Assembly (NCBI GenBank): GCA_016871535.1
Contig: VHCZ01000047.1
Span: 1-32,131, forward strand
DNA: 32,131 bases
Source: Verrucomicrobiota bacterium
GTDB taxonomy: Bacteria; Verrucomicrobiota; Verrucomicrobiia; Limisphaerales; SIBE01
Direction: 5' to 3'
A program made the position numbers and the translations under genes. Numbering within the stretch: the stretch's first letter is position 1; every line of letters starts with the position of its first letter. The notes under the pieces were generated by a model, which worked only from the letters and a program-made list of their open reading frames with translations, did no database searches and had not been told where the DNA came from. Below are positions 946 through 32,131 of this stretch, piece by piece.

Positions 946-1220
946 AGAGCGTGTCCGAAAATTGCGCGGGGTCCTGCGGCGAGGGATTTTGGCTGTGGCC
1001 AAGGCGGCGAGGTCCGAGCATCCCCAACGCGGGCTGTAAGGACCGAGCCAACGCAGGCCACGGACAAAAGACCCGCCGCCCGGAGGGTTTTCGCGCCAAA
1101 GGCCGCCTGGCTTCGTTGCTCCTCAGTCGAAGATCCAGGGAGGATATTCTCCTTCGTCGCGCCTCGCCATCCGGCCTTTGGCGCGAAAACAGGACCCCGC
1201 GGAATTTTCGGACACGCTCT
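946..1220 (-). mobile_element. 275-bp inverted-repeat element, copy 1 (MITE-like, non-coding)
   Basis: The ends are 31-nt terminal inverted repeats with one mismatch, starting AGAGCGTGTCCGAAAATT and running to GGGGTCCTG (946-976 and 1190-1220). A second perfect 17-nt inverted pair, TTTTCGCGCCAAAGGCC and its complement, sits inside at 1088-1104 and 1173-1189, directly against the right terminal repeat. TA flanks both sides here (944-945, 1221-1222), which could be a target duplication, but the other copies do not clearly show it. No reading frame in it looks like a protein. Read in reverse complement it is identical, as far as could be checked by eye, to 23955-24229 and to the 123 visible bases of 32009-32131. 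The strand given is relative to those two copies. Confidence 0.8.
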
Positions 1221-19806: not shown

Positions 19807-20646
19807 CTAGATCTCCAAGAGATCGAGCAAACCCAGGCGCAGCGACTCGTAATTGGCCAGCATGGTCTGGCCGGTCTGGGTGAGCAGGCTGAGGCGGTTG
19901 TACTCGACGGTCTCCGTGGTCGTGTTCGTGTTTTGAATGCGATCCACGGTGGACTGTAGATTCTCTTCCAGGCTGACCAGAAGATCATTGGCGTCGTCGA
20001 TGAAGTCCTTGGTGGAACTGGCTCTCGTCTGGAGAATGCCCAGATTCGCGATGGCGGTGCTCACCGTTGCCTGGGCGGCCGCCGCGGCCGTGGTAGTGGA
20101 GACGCTGACGGTGTCGAAGAAAACGTCGTTGATCCCGCCCGCCGCCGCGTTGGCGTTGTAGTTGATCGCTTGCAGCGTGTATTGCGCCCCGTCCTCGTCG
20201 ATGATGGTCGTGTAACTGGTCCCGAACAGGGACTGGTTGTTGAACGTCCTCCGGCCAATGTCGCTGATGAAAGCCTGGATCTGCGCGAACTCGATCTGGT
20301 AAGACGACCGCTCATCGGCCGTTGTCGAAGTGTTGGAGGACAGCACGGCAAGCGCACTGAGCCGGCTGAGTTTGGTGGAAACCGTTGTGAGAAAATCGCT
20401 CTGGCTCTGAACTAGGTCGGACGCATTGCTGAGGTTCGCTTCCACGGCGTCCAACCGCTTGATCTGGCTGTTTAGCTTGCCGGTTTGGGCAACGCCGGAC
20501 GGATCATCTCCGGAATCGACAATGTGCAACCCGCTGGTGAGGCGTTCCAGAGACTTCTGGAGCAGCAACGTGTTGTCGTCCAGGATGCGCGCCAGTTTCT
20601 TGCTCTGAAAGCTGGTGAGGATTTCGTTGACAGGACTTATGGCCAT
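19807..20646 (-). CDS. Flagellin
   Basis: The N-terminal D0/D1 signature of this 279-residue protein is LLLQKSLERLTSGLHIVDSG (27-46) followed by DDPSGVAQTGKLNSQIKRLD, the position where flagellins have 'LSSGLRINSA.DDAAG'. The C-terminal helix NRLSLLTQTGQTMLANYESL with LRLGLLDLL fits the flagellin C-domain. The middle has the variable domain (FGTSYTTIIDEDGAQYTLQA) and a low-complexity alanine run. It is short, as for minimal flagellins. No other flagellar gene is in the window and no sigma-28 or sigma-54 promoter was convincing. It faces the DUF1501 gene. It could instead be a hook-associated FlgL-like protein, but the length argues for flagellin. Confidence 0.8.
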   Translation of the reverse strand: MAISPVNEILTSFQSKKLARILDDNTLLLQKSLERLTSGLHIVDSGDDPSGVAQTGKLNSQIKRLDAVEANLSNASDLVQSQSDFLTTVSTKLSRLSALAVLSSNTSTTADERSSYQIEFAQIQAFISDIGRRTFNNQSLFGTSYTTIIDEDGAQYTLQAINYNANAAAGGINDVFFDTVSVSTTTAAAAAQATVSTAIANLGILQTRASSTKDFIDDANDLLVSLEENLQSTVDRIQNTNTTTETVEYNRLSLLTQTGQTMLANYESLRLGLLDLLEI

Positions 20647-20786
20647 AGGATTTCCCGTGCTCCCGACTGGAAAAGCTATTTCAACGCCGGATTAAGCTAT
20701 CACATCAAATGCTCTCGAATTGGACCGTTCCTGACACGCTGGGGATTGCATACACCAAGCCAGCCCGATTGTCGAAACAATTCTTT

Positions 20787-20868
20787 CTTAGAGCCTGTCC
20801 GAAAATGTCCGAAAGTGCCCGAAAGTCTATCTAAGAATTGCAGAAGATTGCAGAAAAATCTGTTGACA
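20787..20868 (+). promoter_or_regulatory. Helically phased direct repeats upstream of a TTGACA box
   Basis: Three 10-base direct repeats of the type TGTCCGAAAR lie end to end at 20796-20825, flanked by CTTAGA and TCTAAG. Two further 10-base repeats, ATTGCAGAAG and ATTGCAGAAA, lie at 20837-20856. TTGACA at 20863-20868 is a perfect -35 box; the -10 hexamer 17 bases downstream (GAGATT) is poor. A protein binding one face of the DNA would contact all repeats. It precedes the secreted protein gene at 20924. Confidence 0.5.
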
Positions 20869-20923
20869 TGGGTGACGCGATTTGAGAGATTGCCACCACA
20901 CACGGAACAACTAACATCATAAA

Positions 20924-21559
20924 ATGAGAACAAAAACACTACTTCTTACAGCTGCACTGAGTGCGGCAGGTGTCGCCACCTCAATGGCGCAAGTCTTCTC
21001 TGTAAACGCGGTGGGTTACGTTACGACGAAAATCCCGGCCGGGAAGTTCGCCCTGATTTCCAATCCATTGATCGCCACCGACAACAAGATTGAAACATTG
21101 TTCGCCGGGCAAAACGTCCAGATCTTCAAGTTCGACTCCACAAAAGGAGCTTGGGATACTGCGCAGTTTGACGATCTTGAGAACAAGGTTATTGGGCCTG
21201 CGGCAGCCAAGGAATTGAAGCCGGGAGAAGGCGTCTTCGTTAAGAACCTTGGAAAGACCGACATCAGCGTGACGTTCGTTGGTGAAGTGCCTGCTGGCGA
21301 TCTATCCAATCCGTTGCCAAAAGGTTTGTCAGTTAGGAGTTCCCAAGTCCCACAGAAGGGAAAACTAAAAGATGCTCTCGGTCTTAGCGGTGAAGTTGGA
21401 GATTCAATCTTCCGCTGGACTGGTGACAACTATAAACAGCTCCTCTACGACGACCTGGATAATAATTGGTCGCCAAACGACGACATCGACGTCGGCGAAG
21501 CGTTCTTTATCTCCAAGAAAAACGCAGGTGATTGGAAACGAAAATTCACGATTAACTAA
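20924..21559 (+). CDS. Secreted protein of the 'VNAVGYV' kind
   Basis: This 211-residue protein has a signal peptide (MRTKTLLLTAALSAAGVATS, cleavage probably after the A at 22) and then FSVNAVGYVTTKIPAGKFAL at 25-44. That motif recurs in secreted proteins of verrucomicrobial genomes, often near PEP-CTERM genes. The rest reads as beta-rich repeats (FVKNLGKTDISVTFVGEVPA; GEAFFISKKNAGDWKRKF). No catalytic motif is seen. Base composition is visibly less GC-rich than the flanking genes. It is followed by the PEP-CTERM gene 36 bases downstream, in the same direction, and both end at the terminator at 22148. A surface or matrix protein is the likely class. Confidence 0.7.
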   Translation: MRTKTLLLTAALSAAGVATSMAQVFSVNAVGYVTTKIPAGKFALISNPLIATDNKIETLFAGQNVQIFKFDSTKGAWDTAQFDDLENKVIGPAAAKELKPGEGVFVKNLGKTDISVTFVGEVPAGDLSNPLPKGLSVRSSQVPQKGKLKDALGLSGEVGDSIFRWTGDNYKQLLYDDLDNNWSPNDDIDVGEAFFISKKNAGDWKRKFTIN

Positions 21560-21595
21560 TAAACAAATCAGAACTCTAACTCACTAAAATCAAAT

Positions 21596-22123
21596 ATGAA
21601 AAAGGTACTGATCGCCTTAGCTGCACTTGTAGTGACAACCTCGGTCTTCGGACAAGGAACTGTCGTATTTAACAATCGAAACCCGGCCGCTGGAATTGAT
21701 GCAAAGATTCTACTGCCTGGTGGAGCGGGAGTGAGTGGTGCGGCGTTCACGGCCGATTTGATAGCTGGTCCGGCGGGCACTGCTTTGGCCAAGCTTGTGC
21801 CAGTCGCAGGTTCAACGACGACATTCAGAACTGGCGCTGCAGCTGGTTATGTTAACTCTACTACGGTGACCATTCCTGGCATCGCTGCTGGAGGGCAAGC
21901 AACCATCGCAGTGCGCGCCTATAACGGCAGCACATACGCTGGCTCTTCGTTATTCGGAACATCAGCACCGATCACTATCGGCACTGGCAATCCAACTACA
22001 TCTCCTCCGGGCACACCTACGGACATGGTTGGGCTGACCGGATTCACGCTCGTTCCAGAGCCATCTACTATCGCGTTGGCAATCCTTGGCATCGCTGGTC
22101 TGCTGATCCGACGCCGTAAGTAG
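21596..22123 (+). CDS. PEP-CTERM sorting domain protein
   Basis: This 175-residue protein starts with a signal peptide (MKKVLIALAALVVTTSVFGQ). It ends with VPEPSTIALAILGIAG and a basic tail LLIRRRK, the PEP-CTERM pattern: a VPEP motif, one membrane helix and arginines. Such proteins are cut and anchored by an exosortase and are usually part of an extracellular matrix. The body is rich in glycine, alanine, serine and threonine (GTGNPTTSPPGTPTDMVG), as in surface proteins. It lies directly after the secreted protein gene and directly before a strong terminator. No exosortase gene is visible in this window, so it must be encoded elsewhere. Confidence 0.85.
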   Translation: MKKVLIALAALVVTTSVFGQGTVVFNNRNPAAGIDAKILLPGGAGVSGAAFTADLIAGPAGTALAKLVPVAGSTTTFRTGAAAGYVNSTTVTIPGIAAGGQATIAVRAYNGSTYAGSSLFGTSAPITIGTGNPTTSPPGTPTDMVGLTGFTLVPEPSTIALAILGIAGLLIRRRK

Positions 22124-22147
22124 GGGTCCTTTCGCCTGTTCTCATTT

Positions 22148-22175
22148 AGCCGCTCGAAAGAGCGGCTTTTTTTTT
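22148..22175 (+). terminator. Rho-independent terminator
   Basis: AGCCGCTC and GAGCGGCT form a perfect eight-base-pair stem closed by a GAAA tetraloop and followed by nine Ts in a row (counting the T at the stem end). It lies 24 bases after the PEP-CTERM stop codon. Confidence 0.93.
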
Positions 22176-22230
22176 CGATCAATGCAAATGAAAGCGAAAG
22201 AGAGCTGGAGTCGCTGGAGTCGGAGATTGA

Positions 22231-22258
22231 TTGACAGAGCAACTTGCTGAATTAGCAT
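22231..22258 (+). promoter_or_regulatory. Promoter of the tRNA-Glu gene
   Basis: TTGACA (22231-22236) and TAGCAT (22253-22258) are separated by 16 bases, and the tRNA 5' end follows 14 bases later. A direct repeat of CTGGAGTCG lies just upstream. Confidence 0.6.
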
Positions 22259-22272
22259 TAGCAGGACTTGGC

Positions 22273-22348
22273 GGCGCGTTCGTCTATCGGTTCAGGACAC
22301 GGCCCTCTCAAGGCTGAAAGACGGGTTCGATTCCCGTACGCGCTACCA
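22273..22348 (+). tRNA. tRNA-Glu (anticodon CTC), CCA encoded
   Basis: The 76 bases fold into a full cloverleaf. The acceptor stem pairs GGCGCGT with ACGCGCT (with a G-U at the first pair), the D-stem GTCT with GGAC, the anticodon stem CGGCC with GGCTG around the loop CTCTCAA, and the T-stem ACGGG with CCCGT around TTCGATT. The anticodon is CTC. The discriminator A is followed by a genomic CCA. The layout matches standard bacterial tRNA-Glu. Confidence 0.93.
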
Positions 22349-22359
22349 TCCACCCACTG

Positions 22360-22728
22360 ATGAGGCCATTCCAAATCATCTTTAATCCAATCAGTGCGGC
22401 TGAACTTGCAAAGATGCCACGTGAGTTGCAGTTATTCATCCTGGGTGAATTCCGAGGATTGCCTCACGAGGTACTGACAACCGAGCTCGAGCGATTTGGG
22501 AAGCTTGAACGAGATGGCAAGGTCCTTCACCGCTTTCGGCTTGGCGATTACCGTGTTTACTTCGAGCGACACGAGCTTGGACTCGTTGTTTATCGAATCC
22601 TTAGCAAGAACACGTTGAAGGATTTTCTGTTCCGATCCAGTTTGCCGACGGGAGAGGACGCAGCACTTCAGGATAACCCTAAGTTCTGGGAGTTGATCGA
22701 AGCCACGCGTGGTAGAAACCGGGAATGA
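22360..22728 (+). CDS. RelE/ParE-like toxin candidate
   Basis: The 122-residue protein begins MRPFQIIFNPISAAELAKMP, which fits the first strand and helix of RelE-fold toxins. HRFRLGDYRVYFERHELGLV then YRILSKNTLKDFLFRS looks like the RelE core ('lr.GdyRvyy...e..i.vlriv.K'). RelE toxins cut mRNA in the ribosomal A site. The ATG lies 11 bases after the CCA of tRNA-Glu, so it may be transcribed from the tRNA promoter. No antitoxin-sized gene lies directly upstream or downstream in the same direction; the next gene is on the other strand. The fold call is moderately sure; toxicity is inference. Confidence 0.55.
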   Translation: MRPFQIIFNPISAAELAKMPRELQLFILGEFRGLPHEVLTTELERFGKLERDGKVLHRFRLGDYRVYFERHELGLVVYRILSKNTLKDFLFRSSLPTGEDAALQDNPKFWELIEATRGRNRE

Positions 22729-22753
22729 TGGGGATGGAGCAGTCCGGAGAGAA

Positions 22754-23371
22754 TCAGACACCGTCTCCGATCTCGACGTTCCAATAGGCGATATCGAGAA
22801 AGTGCTTCCAACTATCGTGGTAATTCAAGCCCAGATTGACTTGAATGAATGGGCGCCACTTCGGCCGTTTCGGCTTTCGGATGAGATGCATCCCGGCTTC
22901 CTGGGGCGTTCGATTAGCCTTCTTCGTGTTGCAAGGGACGCAGGAACAAACGATGTTTTCCCAGGAAGTTGGTCCTCCGCGATGTTTGGGGATGACGTGA
23001 TCCAGGTTTAGGTCTTTTCTGTCAAAGACCCCGCCGCAATACTGACACGTATTCTCGTCCCTCTCGAATACATTGAAGCGAGTGAACTTGACCTCCTTCT
23101 TTGGAAGCCTATCGAAGAGCACCAACAGGATGACTCTTGGGACCCGGATCCGAAATGAGATGGTATGGATGCTCTCGGGGTGGGGTTGCCGCTCAGAAAA
23201 ATCCTGCCACTGGTTAAAATTAAAAGTCTGGAATGAGCCATCATGCGCTCCAAGCACGGCTTGGGCGCGGCCTTCAAACAAGAGCGTCAATGCCCTGCGC
23301 GCACTGCACACATTGACTGCTTGCCAGAGGCGATTGAGCACCAAAACCTGTTGATTCAAGCATGAGATCAT
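22754..23371 (-). CDS. HNH endonuclease
   Basis: The HNH core of this 205-residue protein is complete: CQYCG (109-113) as first metal pair, LDHVIPKHRGG (123-133) with the catalytic D124-H125, ENIVCSC (138-144) with N139 and CVPCNTKK (144-151) as second metal pair. The N-terminal 90 residues (VLNRLWQAVNVCSARRALTL, LFEGRAQAVL) are the extension usual in the stand-alone HNH family that is common in bacteria, where the role is often nuclease or unknown. It is convergent with the RelE-like gene. Nothing next to it suggests restriction, intron homing or a phage terminase; the region between tRNA and 275-bp element suggests accessory DNA. Confidence 0.85.
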   Translation of the reverse strand: MISCLNQQVLVLNRLWQAVNVCSARRALTLLFEGRAQAVLGAHDGSFQTFNFNQWQDFSERQPHPESIHTISFRIRVPRVILLVLFDRLPKKEVKFTRFNVFERDENTCQYCGGVFDRKDLNLDHVIPKHRGGPTSWENIVCSCVPCNTKKANRTPQEAGMHLIRKPKRPKWRPFIQVNLGLNYHDSWKHFLDIAYWNVEIGDGV

Positions 23372-23521
23372 AAACCGTCGGCGCGGACGCTAACATATGG
23401 CTCACGAAAGTGTCAATCGCCTCAGAATCATTTTGAATCATGCGTCCGTGAACGGCCTGCGCAATCGGCAGGTTCAAACCGTCGAGCCGCTGCGCGCCGA
23501 CTGGAAAGAGAGGTTGGCCGC

Positions 23522-23954: not shown

Positions 23955-24229
23955 AGAGCGTGTCCGAAAATTCCGCGGGGTCCTGTTTTCGCGCCAAAGG
24001 CCGGATGGCGAGGCGCGACGAAGGAGAATATCCTCCCTGGATCTTCGACTGAGGAGCAACGAAGCCAGGCGGCCTTTGGCGCGAAAACCCTCCGGGCGGC
24101 GGGTCTTTTGTCCGTGGCCTGCGTTGGCTCGGTCCTTACAGCCCGCGTTGGGGATGCTCGGACCTCGCCGCCTTGGCCACAGCCAAAATCCCTCGCCGCA
24201 GGACCCCGCGCAATTTTCGGACACGCTCT
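23955..24229 (+). mobile_element. 275-bp inverted-repeat element, copy 2
   Basis: It has the same length and the same ends as 946-1220, in reverse orientation, with the inner 17-base arms at 23986-24002 and 24071-24087. An internal palindrome GGAGAATATCCTCC lies in the loop between them. No difference from copy 1 was found by eye in the compared stretches. It is flanked by TT on the left and TA on the right, so a clean target duplication is not seen. It lies between the transposase remnant and a diverged relative. Confidence 0.8.
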
Positions 24230-32008: not shown

Positions 32009-32131
32009 AGAGCGTGTCCGAAAATTCCGCGGGGTCCTGTTTTCGCGCCAAAGGCCGGATGGCGAGGCGCGACGAAGGAGAATATCCTCCCTGGATCTTC
32101 GACTGAGGAGCAACGAAGCCAGGCGGCCTTT
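32009..32131 (+). mobile_element. 275-bp inverted-repeat element, copy 3 (cut by the window end)
   Basis: The first 123 bases of the element are visible, identical by eye to 23955-24077. The AGAGCG end lies two bases from the AGGAG ribosome-binding site of the minus-strand methyltransferase gene. The remaining half is beyond the window. Confidence 0.78.

Follow-up and report, generated by a model that had tools for sequence, protein, structure and literature searches.

Helically phased A-tracts before a conserved extended -10-type promoter in the Limisphaerales, with an IS5-family end in the outermost unit of one array

In a Verrucomicrobiota genome, one contig stretch of 32,131 nucleotides (the window) carries a series of repeated 10-base units that leads up to a perfect TTGACA box and a gene for a secreted protein. 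The question raised by this locus is what the units do at that position and how they arose. The first-pass annotation of the region, made from the letters alone, read them as an operator-like site, possibly derived from the end of a mobile element or bound together with that element by one protein. The gene and its neighbours are as follows.

19807..20646, minus strand: divergent flagellin gene, whose orthologue in the genus relative G002 lies on a different contig from the VNAVGYV locus
20924..21559, plus strand: gene for the VNAVGYV secreted protein of 211 aa, assigned to neither a Pfam nor an NCBIfam family
21596..22123, plus strand: PEP-CTERM protein gene, 3' of the VNAVGYV gene and also adjoining its orthologue in a second genus relative, G001

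Matches to the VNAVGYV protein were found in 210 of the 293 genomes of the order, with a signal peptide that is nearly invariant within the family. The structure model consists mostly of strands (mean pLDDT 67) and gave no convincing match when compared with the PDB, and no literature on 'VNAVGYV' was found. Close to the flagellin gene, the palindrome-like sequence TTGTCGAAACAA (20770-20781) is conserved 5' of the flagellin orthologue in G002, and is possibly a flagellin control site.

The repeated units lie between the two genes, in two sets separated by a short bridge.

20787-20792: CTTAGA, left arm of the 'bracket' described around the first set
20796, plus strand: 10-bp unit TGTCCGAAAA, rung 61 bases before TTGACA
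20806, plus strand: 10-bp unit TGTCCGAAAG, rung 51 bases before TTGACA
20816, plus strand: 10-bp unit TGCCCGAAAG, rung 41 bases before TTGACA
20796..20825, plus strand: the three-unit set formed by these units, genome-unique
20830..20836, plus strand: TCTAAGA, degenerate ancestral box, A-run 30 bases before TTGACA
20837, plus strand: 10-bp unit ATTGCAGAAG, A-run 19 bases before TTGACA
20847, plus strand: 10-bp unit ATTGCAGAAA, A-run 9 bases before TTGACA
20837..20856, plus strand: the two-unit set formed by these units, single copy in G001 and G002

Most of what had been described here was recovered. Both ATTGCAGAAR units, the perfect TTGACA at 20863-20868, and the CTTAGA and TCTAAG (20830-20835) arms on either side of the first set are present as reported, while the three TGTCCGAAAR units occupy the positions given for them but are not all exact, the third having one mismatch. 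The 10-base periodicity also exceeds chance. Identity at lag 10 over 20795-20860 is 36/56, against 19/55 for the next best short lag, which makes this the highest lag-10 stretch of the window, and in 3000 dinucleotide-shuffled versions of the intergenic sequence that score was never reached, whether at lag 10 itself or across lags 6-20. Tandem Repeats Finder reported both sets, among 23 low-scoring arrays in the window. A feature overlooked in the first description is the bridge TCTAAGAATTG, with its A-run at 20833; because it joins the two sets, we treat them as one continuous ladder of six rungs. An Rfam scan of the region returned three sub-threshold matches, which were rejected.

Upstream regions of the VNAVGYV gene were gathered from 91 relatives, of which 81, representing 34 families, gave an alignment anchored on the -35 box and leader. 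The relatives are metagenome assemblies, with one genome per species and the order sampled in part. TTGAC and the leader were required for choosing promoters, so that their own 100% conservation is uninformative and the flanking pattern is the informative part. In this genome the aligned features are:

20863..20868, plus strand: -35 box TTGACA; TTGAC anchors 81/81 aligned promoters, and the sixth base is A in 69%
20883..20891, plus strand: predicted extended -10, TGA followed by GAGATT, after a 17-base spacer; conserved order-wide
20897..20907, plus strand: 5' leader CACACACGGAA, conserved, where transcription is expected to start

The layout shared across the order comprises AAAAA at -9 to -5 before TTGACA (here 20854-20858, directly 5' of the box), a 17-base spacer ending in TYTGN, GANATT, and then CACACACGGAA. 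In the consensus TYTGN-GANATT the conserved positions reach T 83, Y 95, T 81 and G 79 percent, followed by A 90 and T 86 percent in the hexamer. The TTGACA, the 17-base spacer, the TGN and the hexamer A2 and T6 expected of a sigma-70 promoter with an extended -10 were all found, the first base of the hexamer being G rather than T. The hexamer GAGATT is weak (3/6) and was missed by a consensus scan; its assignment as the -10 is based on conservation. As judged from sequence, the promoter is sigma-70-like, of the extended -10 type, and its conservation extends across the order. The region upstream of the C23 paralogue (L034) has no such promoter. Between 20892 and 20938, the leader lacks a Shine-Dalgarno sequence, and conservation throughout the order extends into the start of the coding sequence, ATG AGA ACA AAA, with Arg2 encoded by AGA in 76/76 and Lys4 by AAA in 81/81; this conservation of codons and leader points to a constraint on the initiation region.

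The informative pattern upstream of the -35 box is one of helical steps. In the 81 promoters, tracts of at least four A begin at means of 9.0, 20.0, 30.7 and 42.0 bases before TTGACA. Starts per promoter are 0.76 at 9-10, 0.43 at 19-21 and 0.20 at 30-32 bases, and fall to 0.06 (13-17), 0.02 (24-28) and 0.01 (34-38) in the gaps; at 166 control TTGACA sites in the same DNA, the values at the three preferred distances are 0.012, 0.024 and 0.030. GTTCAA boxes behave in the same manner, as all 46 within 40 bases of the -35 box lie 12-14, 23-26 or 34-36 bases upstream. For 29 unique family-distance pairs at a period of 11 bp, the Rayleigh R is 0.91 (p ~3e-11) and 0 of 20000 random placements reached the observed value; the families are related and hence not fully independent events, yet the three registers occur in different families with no intermediate positions. 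These alignments show that A-tracts and GTTCAA boxes are spaced at one helical turn per step. Two promoters carry several boxes, with double GTTC boxes in L151, 24 and 13 bases before TTGACA, and three GTTCAAAA boxes in L088 (the G056 promoter), at 36, 25 and 12, which form the clearest natural ladder of this box.

The array of the present genome follows the same ruler. Its A-runs of at least two bases stand 9, 19, 30, 41, 51 and 61 bases before TTGACA, with a fitted period of 10.49 bp and an rms deviation of 0.35 bp from 10.5; one AA, at 27, lies off the ladder. At this threshold the ladder is the longest of the 81 promoters, whereas at a threshold of three A it shrinks to one rung and other promoters are longer, most rungs here being only AA or AAA. 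Thus A-tracts directly 5' of the -35 box are both present here and conserved in the order, and the subsites recur at each helical turn, in fixed positions relative to the -35 box. Predicted curvature is moderate, at 55 degrees compared with 30 +/- 15 in shuffles (56 of 1000 were as high), calculated with one set of wedge values; strong intrinsic curvature was ruled out since the value is only moderately raised.

The outermost unit has a separate origin. Positions 20788..20805 match exactly, at 18/18 bases, the ends of 275-bp miniature elements (MITEs) and of a complete IS5-family element in the same genome, and with one mismatch the end of a 147-bp MITE variant.

20788..20805, plus strand: solo IS5-family end, with triplet TTA (20788-20790) and 15-bp terminal repeat GAGCCTGTCCGAAAA (20791-20805)
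946..1220, no strand assigned: 275-bp palindromic-ended element copy, terminal repeat as in the first unit
23955..24229, no strand assigned: second 275-bp element copy

The resemblance to the 275-bp element reported by the first-pass annotation is therefore real and longer than stated, the element end being the 18-base TTAGAGC[G/C]TGTCCGAAAA. There are 291 such ends in the genome at up to 2 mismatches and none in the reversed control. Ends of the 275-bp elements are flanked by TNA triplets, mostly duplicated, and are held in common with the 147-bp variant and the complete element of ~950 bp, whose transposase is recognised by the IS5-family model NF033580 at 227 bits (cut-off 110) and also matches DDE_Tnp_1. 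At our site the terminal repeat and target triplet of these transposase-bearing elements are thus present, and the comparison shows the outermost unit to be an IS5-family end by sequence. A complete two-ended element with matching target duplication was not found there; no second matching end was seen nearby, and the right flank, TAA, does not repeat TTA. A hidden second end at TCTAAG was ruled out, as in the alignment these bases correspond to the ancestral box, which reads TCCAAG in G001 and TTCAAA in G002. The suggested derivation from an element end is supported for the first unit, by the exact match and a synteny breakpoint described below, and only this unit lies within the terminal repeat. 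A second TGTCCGAA unit follows none of the other element ends read, and natural subterminal repeats of IS ends were rejected as the source of the array because no end read continues with TGTCCGAAAG.

Other observations concern the elements themselves. The 275-bp MITE-like elements with IS5-type ends are present in very large numbers here but are sparse in relatives, and their abundance therefore reflects a recent burst; the contig itself ends inside a copy (32009-32131). The second, 147-bp MITE family has GAGCCTGTCTGAAAA ends and internal inverted repeats (L050 466-612, L052, L055 and L056). Near 1600-1880 of L049, another element end (GGACAGGCTCTAAGAGCG) comes immediately after a MITE end, which suggests that one element inserted beside another.

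The position of the IS5-family end coincides with a break in synteny. Homology to the region upstream of the flagellin orthologue in G002 stops at 20782, and homology to the VNAVGYV loci of G001 and G002, which covers 20844-23429, begins at 20844-20847. Therefore the segment from 20783 to ~20832, comprising the element end and the tandem copies, fills a junction that is missing from the relatives, and the array is without counterpart in them. The ATTGCAGAAR unit is single in both relatives and double here; accordingly, the pair is a 10-bp duplication in this lineage. G001 carries its own 10-bp duplication at the corresponding place (TGCGTCCAAA TGCGTCCAAG). The idea that tandem duplications of 10 bp are generally enriched upstream of orthologues was rejected, since only three clear cases were seen (this genome, G001 and L144, the last consisting mostly of A-tracts). 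The extra rungs of the present array arose by 10-bp duplication.

Whether the site serves one gene or many was addressed by its recurrence. Searched literally with up to three mismatches, or as degenerate units at two, the array has its sole site in the 6.67-Mb genome at this locus; beyond it there were two dispersed matches, each with two mismatches, a level also seen in the control. The core ATCTRTTGACA-N12-TTTGAGA is likewise unique in the genome, the other three matches having three mismatches. When A5-N4-TTGACA-N12-TYTG-N2-A-N3-T was scanned with one mismatch in 30 whole genomes, it matched in 24, usually once each and nearly always at the VNAVGYV gene; a handful of places elsewhere matched (G089, G191, G141 and G036), and the reversed control gave 1 match in total. 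Searching 16 genomes for GTTCAAAA plus TTGACA recovered essentially the VNAVGYV promoter, plus dispersed others that have no spacing in common. None of these three patterns made any gene other than this one stand out, and the same site was not found 5' of other genes. Because each genome has essentially one copy of the core promoter, at the VNAVGYV gene, a regulon operator is unlikely, and the proposal of an operator-like site common to other genes is not supported. That proposal was to be abandoned if the arrays did not recur upstream of any other gene; the literal array is indeed absent elsewhere in this genome, while the helical-step architecture recurs before orthologues throughout the order.

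Taking these results together, we lean, at slightly better than even, toward a helically phased A-tract UP element of an extended -10 promoter, bound by the alpha-CTD and lengthened through capture of an IS end. The region would form the 5' part of a conserved housekeeping-type promoter of the VNAVGYV gene, in which short A-tracts, one per turn on the helix face set by the -35 box, act as an extended UP element. C-terminal domains of the RNA polymerase alpha subunit would occupy one rung after another, probably with the aid of a slight bend that the phased A-tracts impart, and would drive strong transcription at the perfect TTGACA with its extended -10. An IS5-family end left at the rearrangement junction may have contributed one TGTCCGAAAA rung in phase; tandem duplication in 10-bp steps could then have made three of it, and the separate ATTGCAGAAR duplication would have added one more rung with phase kept. 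Alpha-CTD binding, high expression and selection for phase are parts of this proposal that we infer. The conserved GTTC before many A-tracts speaks against a UP element, in that it looks more specific than the alpha-CTD requires. The shortness of most rungs in this genome, the moderate curvature and the weak -10 hexamer also count against the proposal.

The array could instead be a scar, an IS end with slippage-made 10-bp repeats that is functionless and happens to lie upstream of an intact core promoter. The IS end falls exactly at the synteny breakpoint and the array sequence is confined to this genome, both as expected of a scar, and the reading is viable because an IS-derived rung could fall in phase by luck roughly one time in three. 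Arguing the other way, all six rungs keep the order-wide phase within 0.5 bp of a 10.5-bp ruler and an in-phase 10-bp duplication of separate origin stands at the corresponding position in the sister genome, although either could be coincidence. We hold a scar to be possible, with some doubt. Equally tentative is the suggestion that copies of the IS5 terminal repeat, amplified in 10-bp steps, replaced lost GTTCAAAA boxes and are read by a dedicated factor or by the alpha-CTD. If so, a mobile-element end would have been co-opted as promoter boxes that stay in register on one helix face.

Spacing by helical steps is what activator sites usually show, class I and class II activators being comparable cases. 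A dedicated activator might recognise the GTTCAAAA box, here degenerated to TGTCCGAAAR, and contact RNA polymerase from sites one turn apart. Such a protein would account for the spacing and for the conservation of GTTC beyond the A-tract at all three distances, whether single (in most promoters), double or triple. Yet many orthologues have A-tracts only, without GTTC, the core is a one-gene promoter, and GTTCAAAA outside it is scattered with no common spacing relative to TTGACA, so we regard a dedicated activator as unlikely. A contingency locus, in which slippage varies the number of 10-bp units and tunes expression, is very improbable in our estimation: the tandem units are near-perfect and tract length and A-box phase have a precedent in Helicobacter pylori sabA (PMC4081817), but ten-base steps preserve rotational phase and would affect dose only, and the comparison covers a single strain. 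Least probable of all, and hardly credible, is an operator for a regulator common to the 275-bp elements, for instance IS5 transposase binding its own end and affecting the promoter, as the intact 15-bp terminal repeat and the full element with identical ends and a transposase ORF would permit, since only the first unit belongs to the terminal repeat and the phased architecture is present also in relatives where no end of this kind is seen upstream.

The order-wide promoter marks one uncharacterised secreted protein, and its natural alignment of ~80 promoters, found without expression data, places boxes at discrete one-turn positions. This is a direct comparative test of rotational phasing, which is usually shown only with engineered promoters. 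The locus also indicates that an insertion-sequence end can feed promoter evolution.

UP elements are A-rich sites for the alpha-CTD located 5' of the -35 box. The present region resembles them in its A-rich subsites directly 5' of the box, about one turn apart and beside a strong -35; it differs in having six rungs (to ~-97), a conserved GTTC/CC before the tracts and order-wide occurrence at one gene, with alpha-CTD contact being presumed here. The E. coli UP-element consensus is NNAAAWWTWTTTTNNAAANNN, as quoted in PMC4081817. At H. pylori sabA, A-boxes 10 bp apart lie upstream of the core promoter and their phase to it sets output (PMC4081817). The 10-bp spacing is shared, whereas at sabA a variable T-tract rotates the boxes, and here the steps keep phase and one box is IS-derived. 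Helically phased A-tracts 5' of bacterial promoters have long been known (PMC9825172 and references therein), and A-tracts at helical pitch aligned to the promoter are common to those cases and ours. In Synechocystis, however, the signal is genome-wide and aligned to the -10 and start site (PMC9825172), while here it belongs to one gene and is fixed to the -35 box, site by site. Finally, IS5-family insertion sequences and MITEs share with the elements of this genome their GAGCSTGTCYGAAAA ends, TNA target triplets and IS5 transposase; at the site itself, in contrast, only a single end is left, and its final ten bases are repeated in tandem after it.
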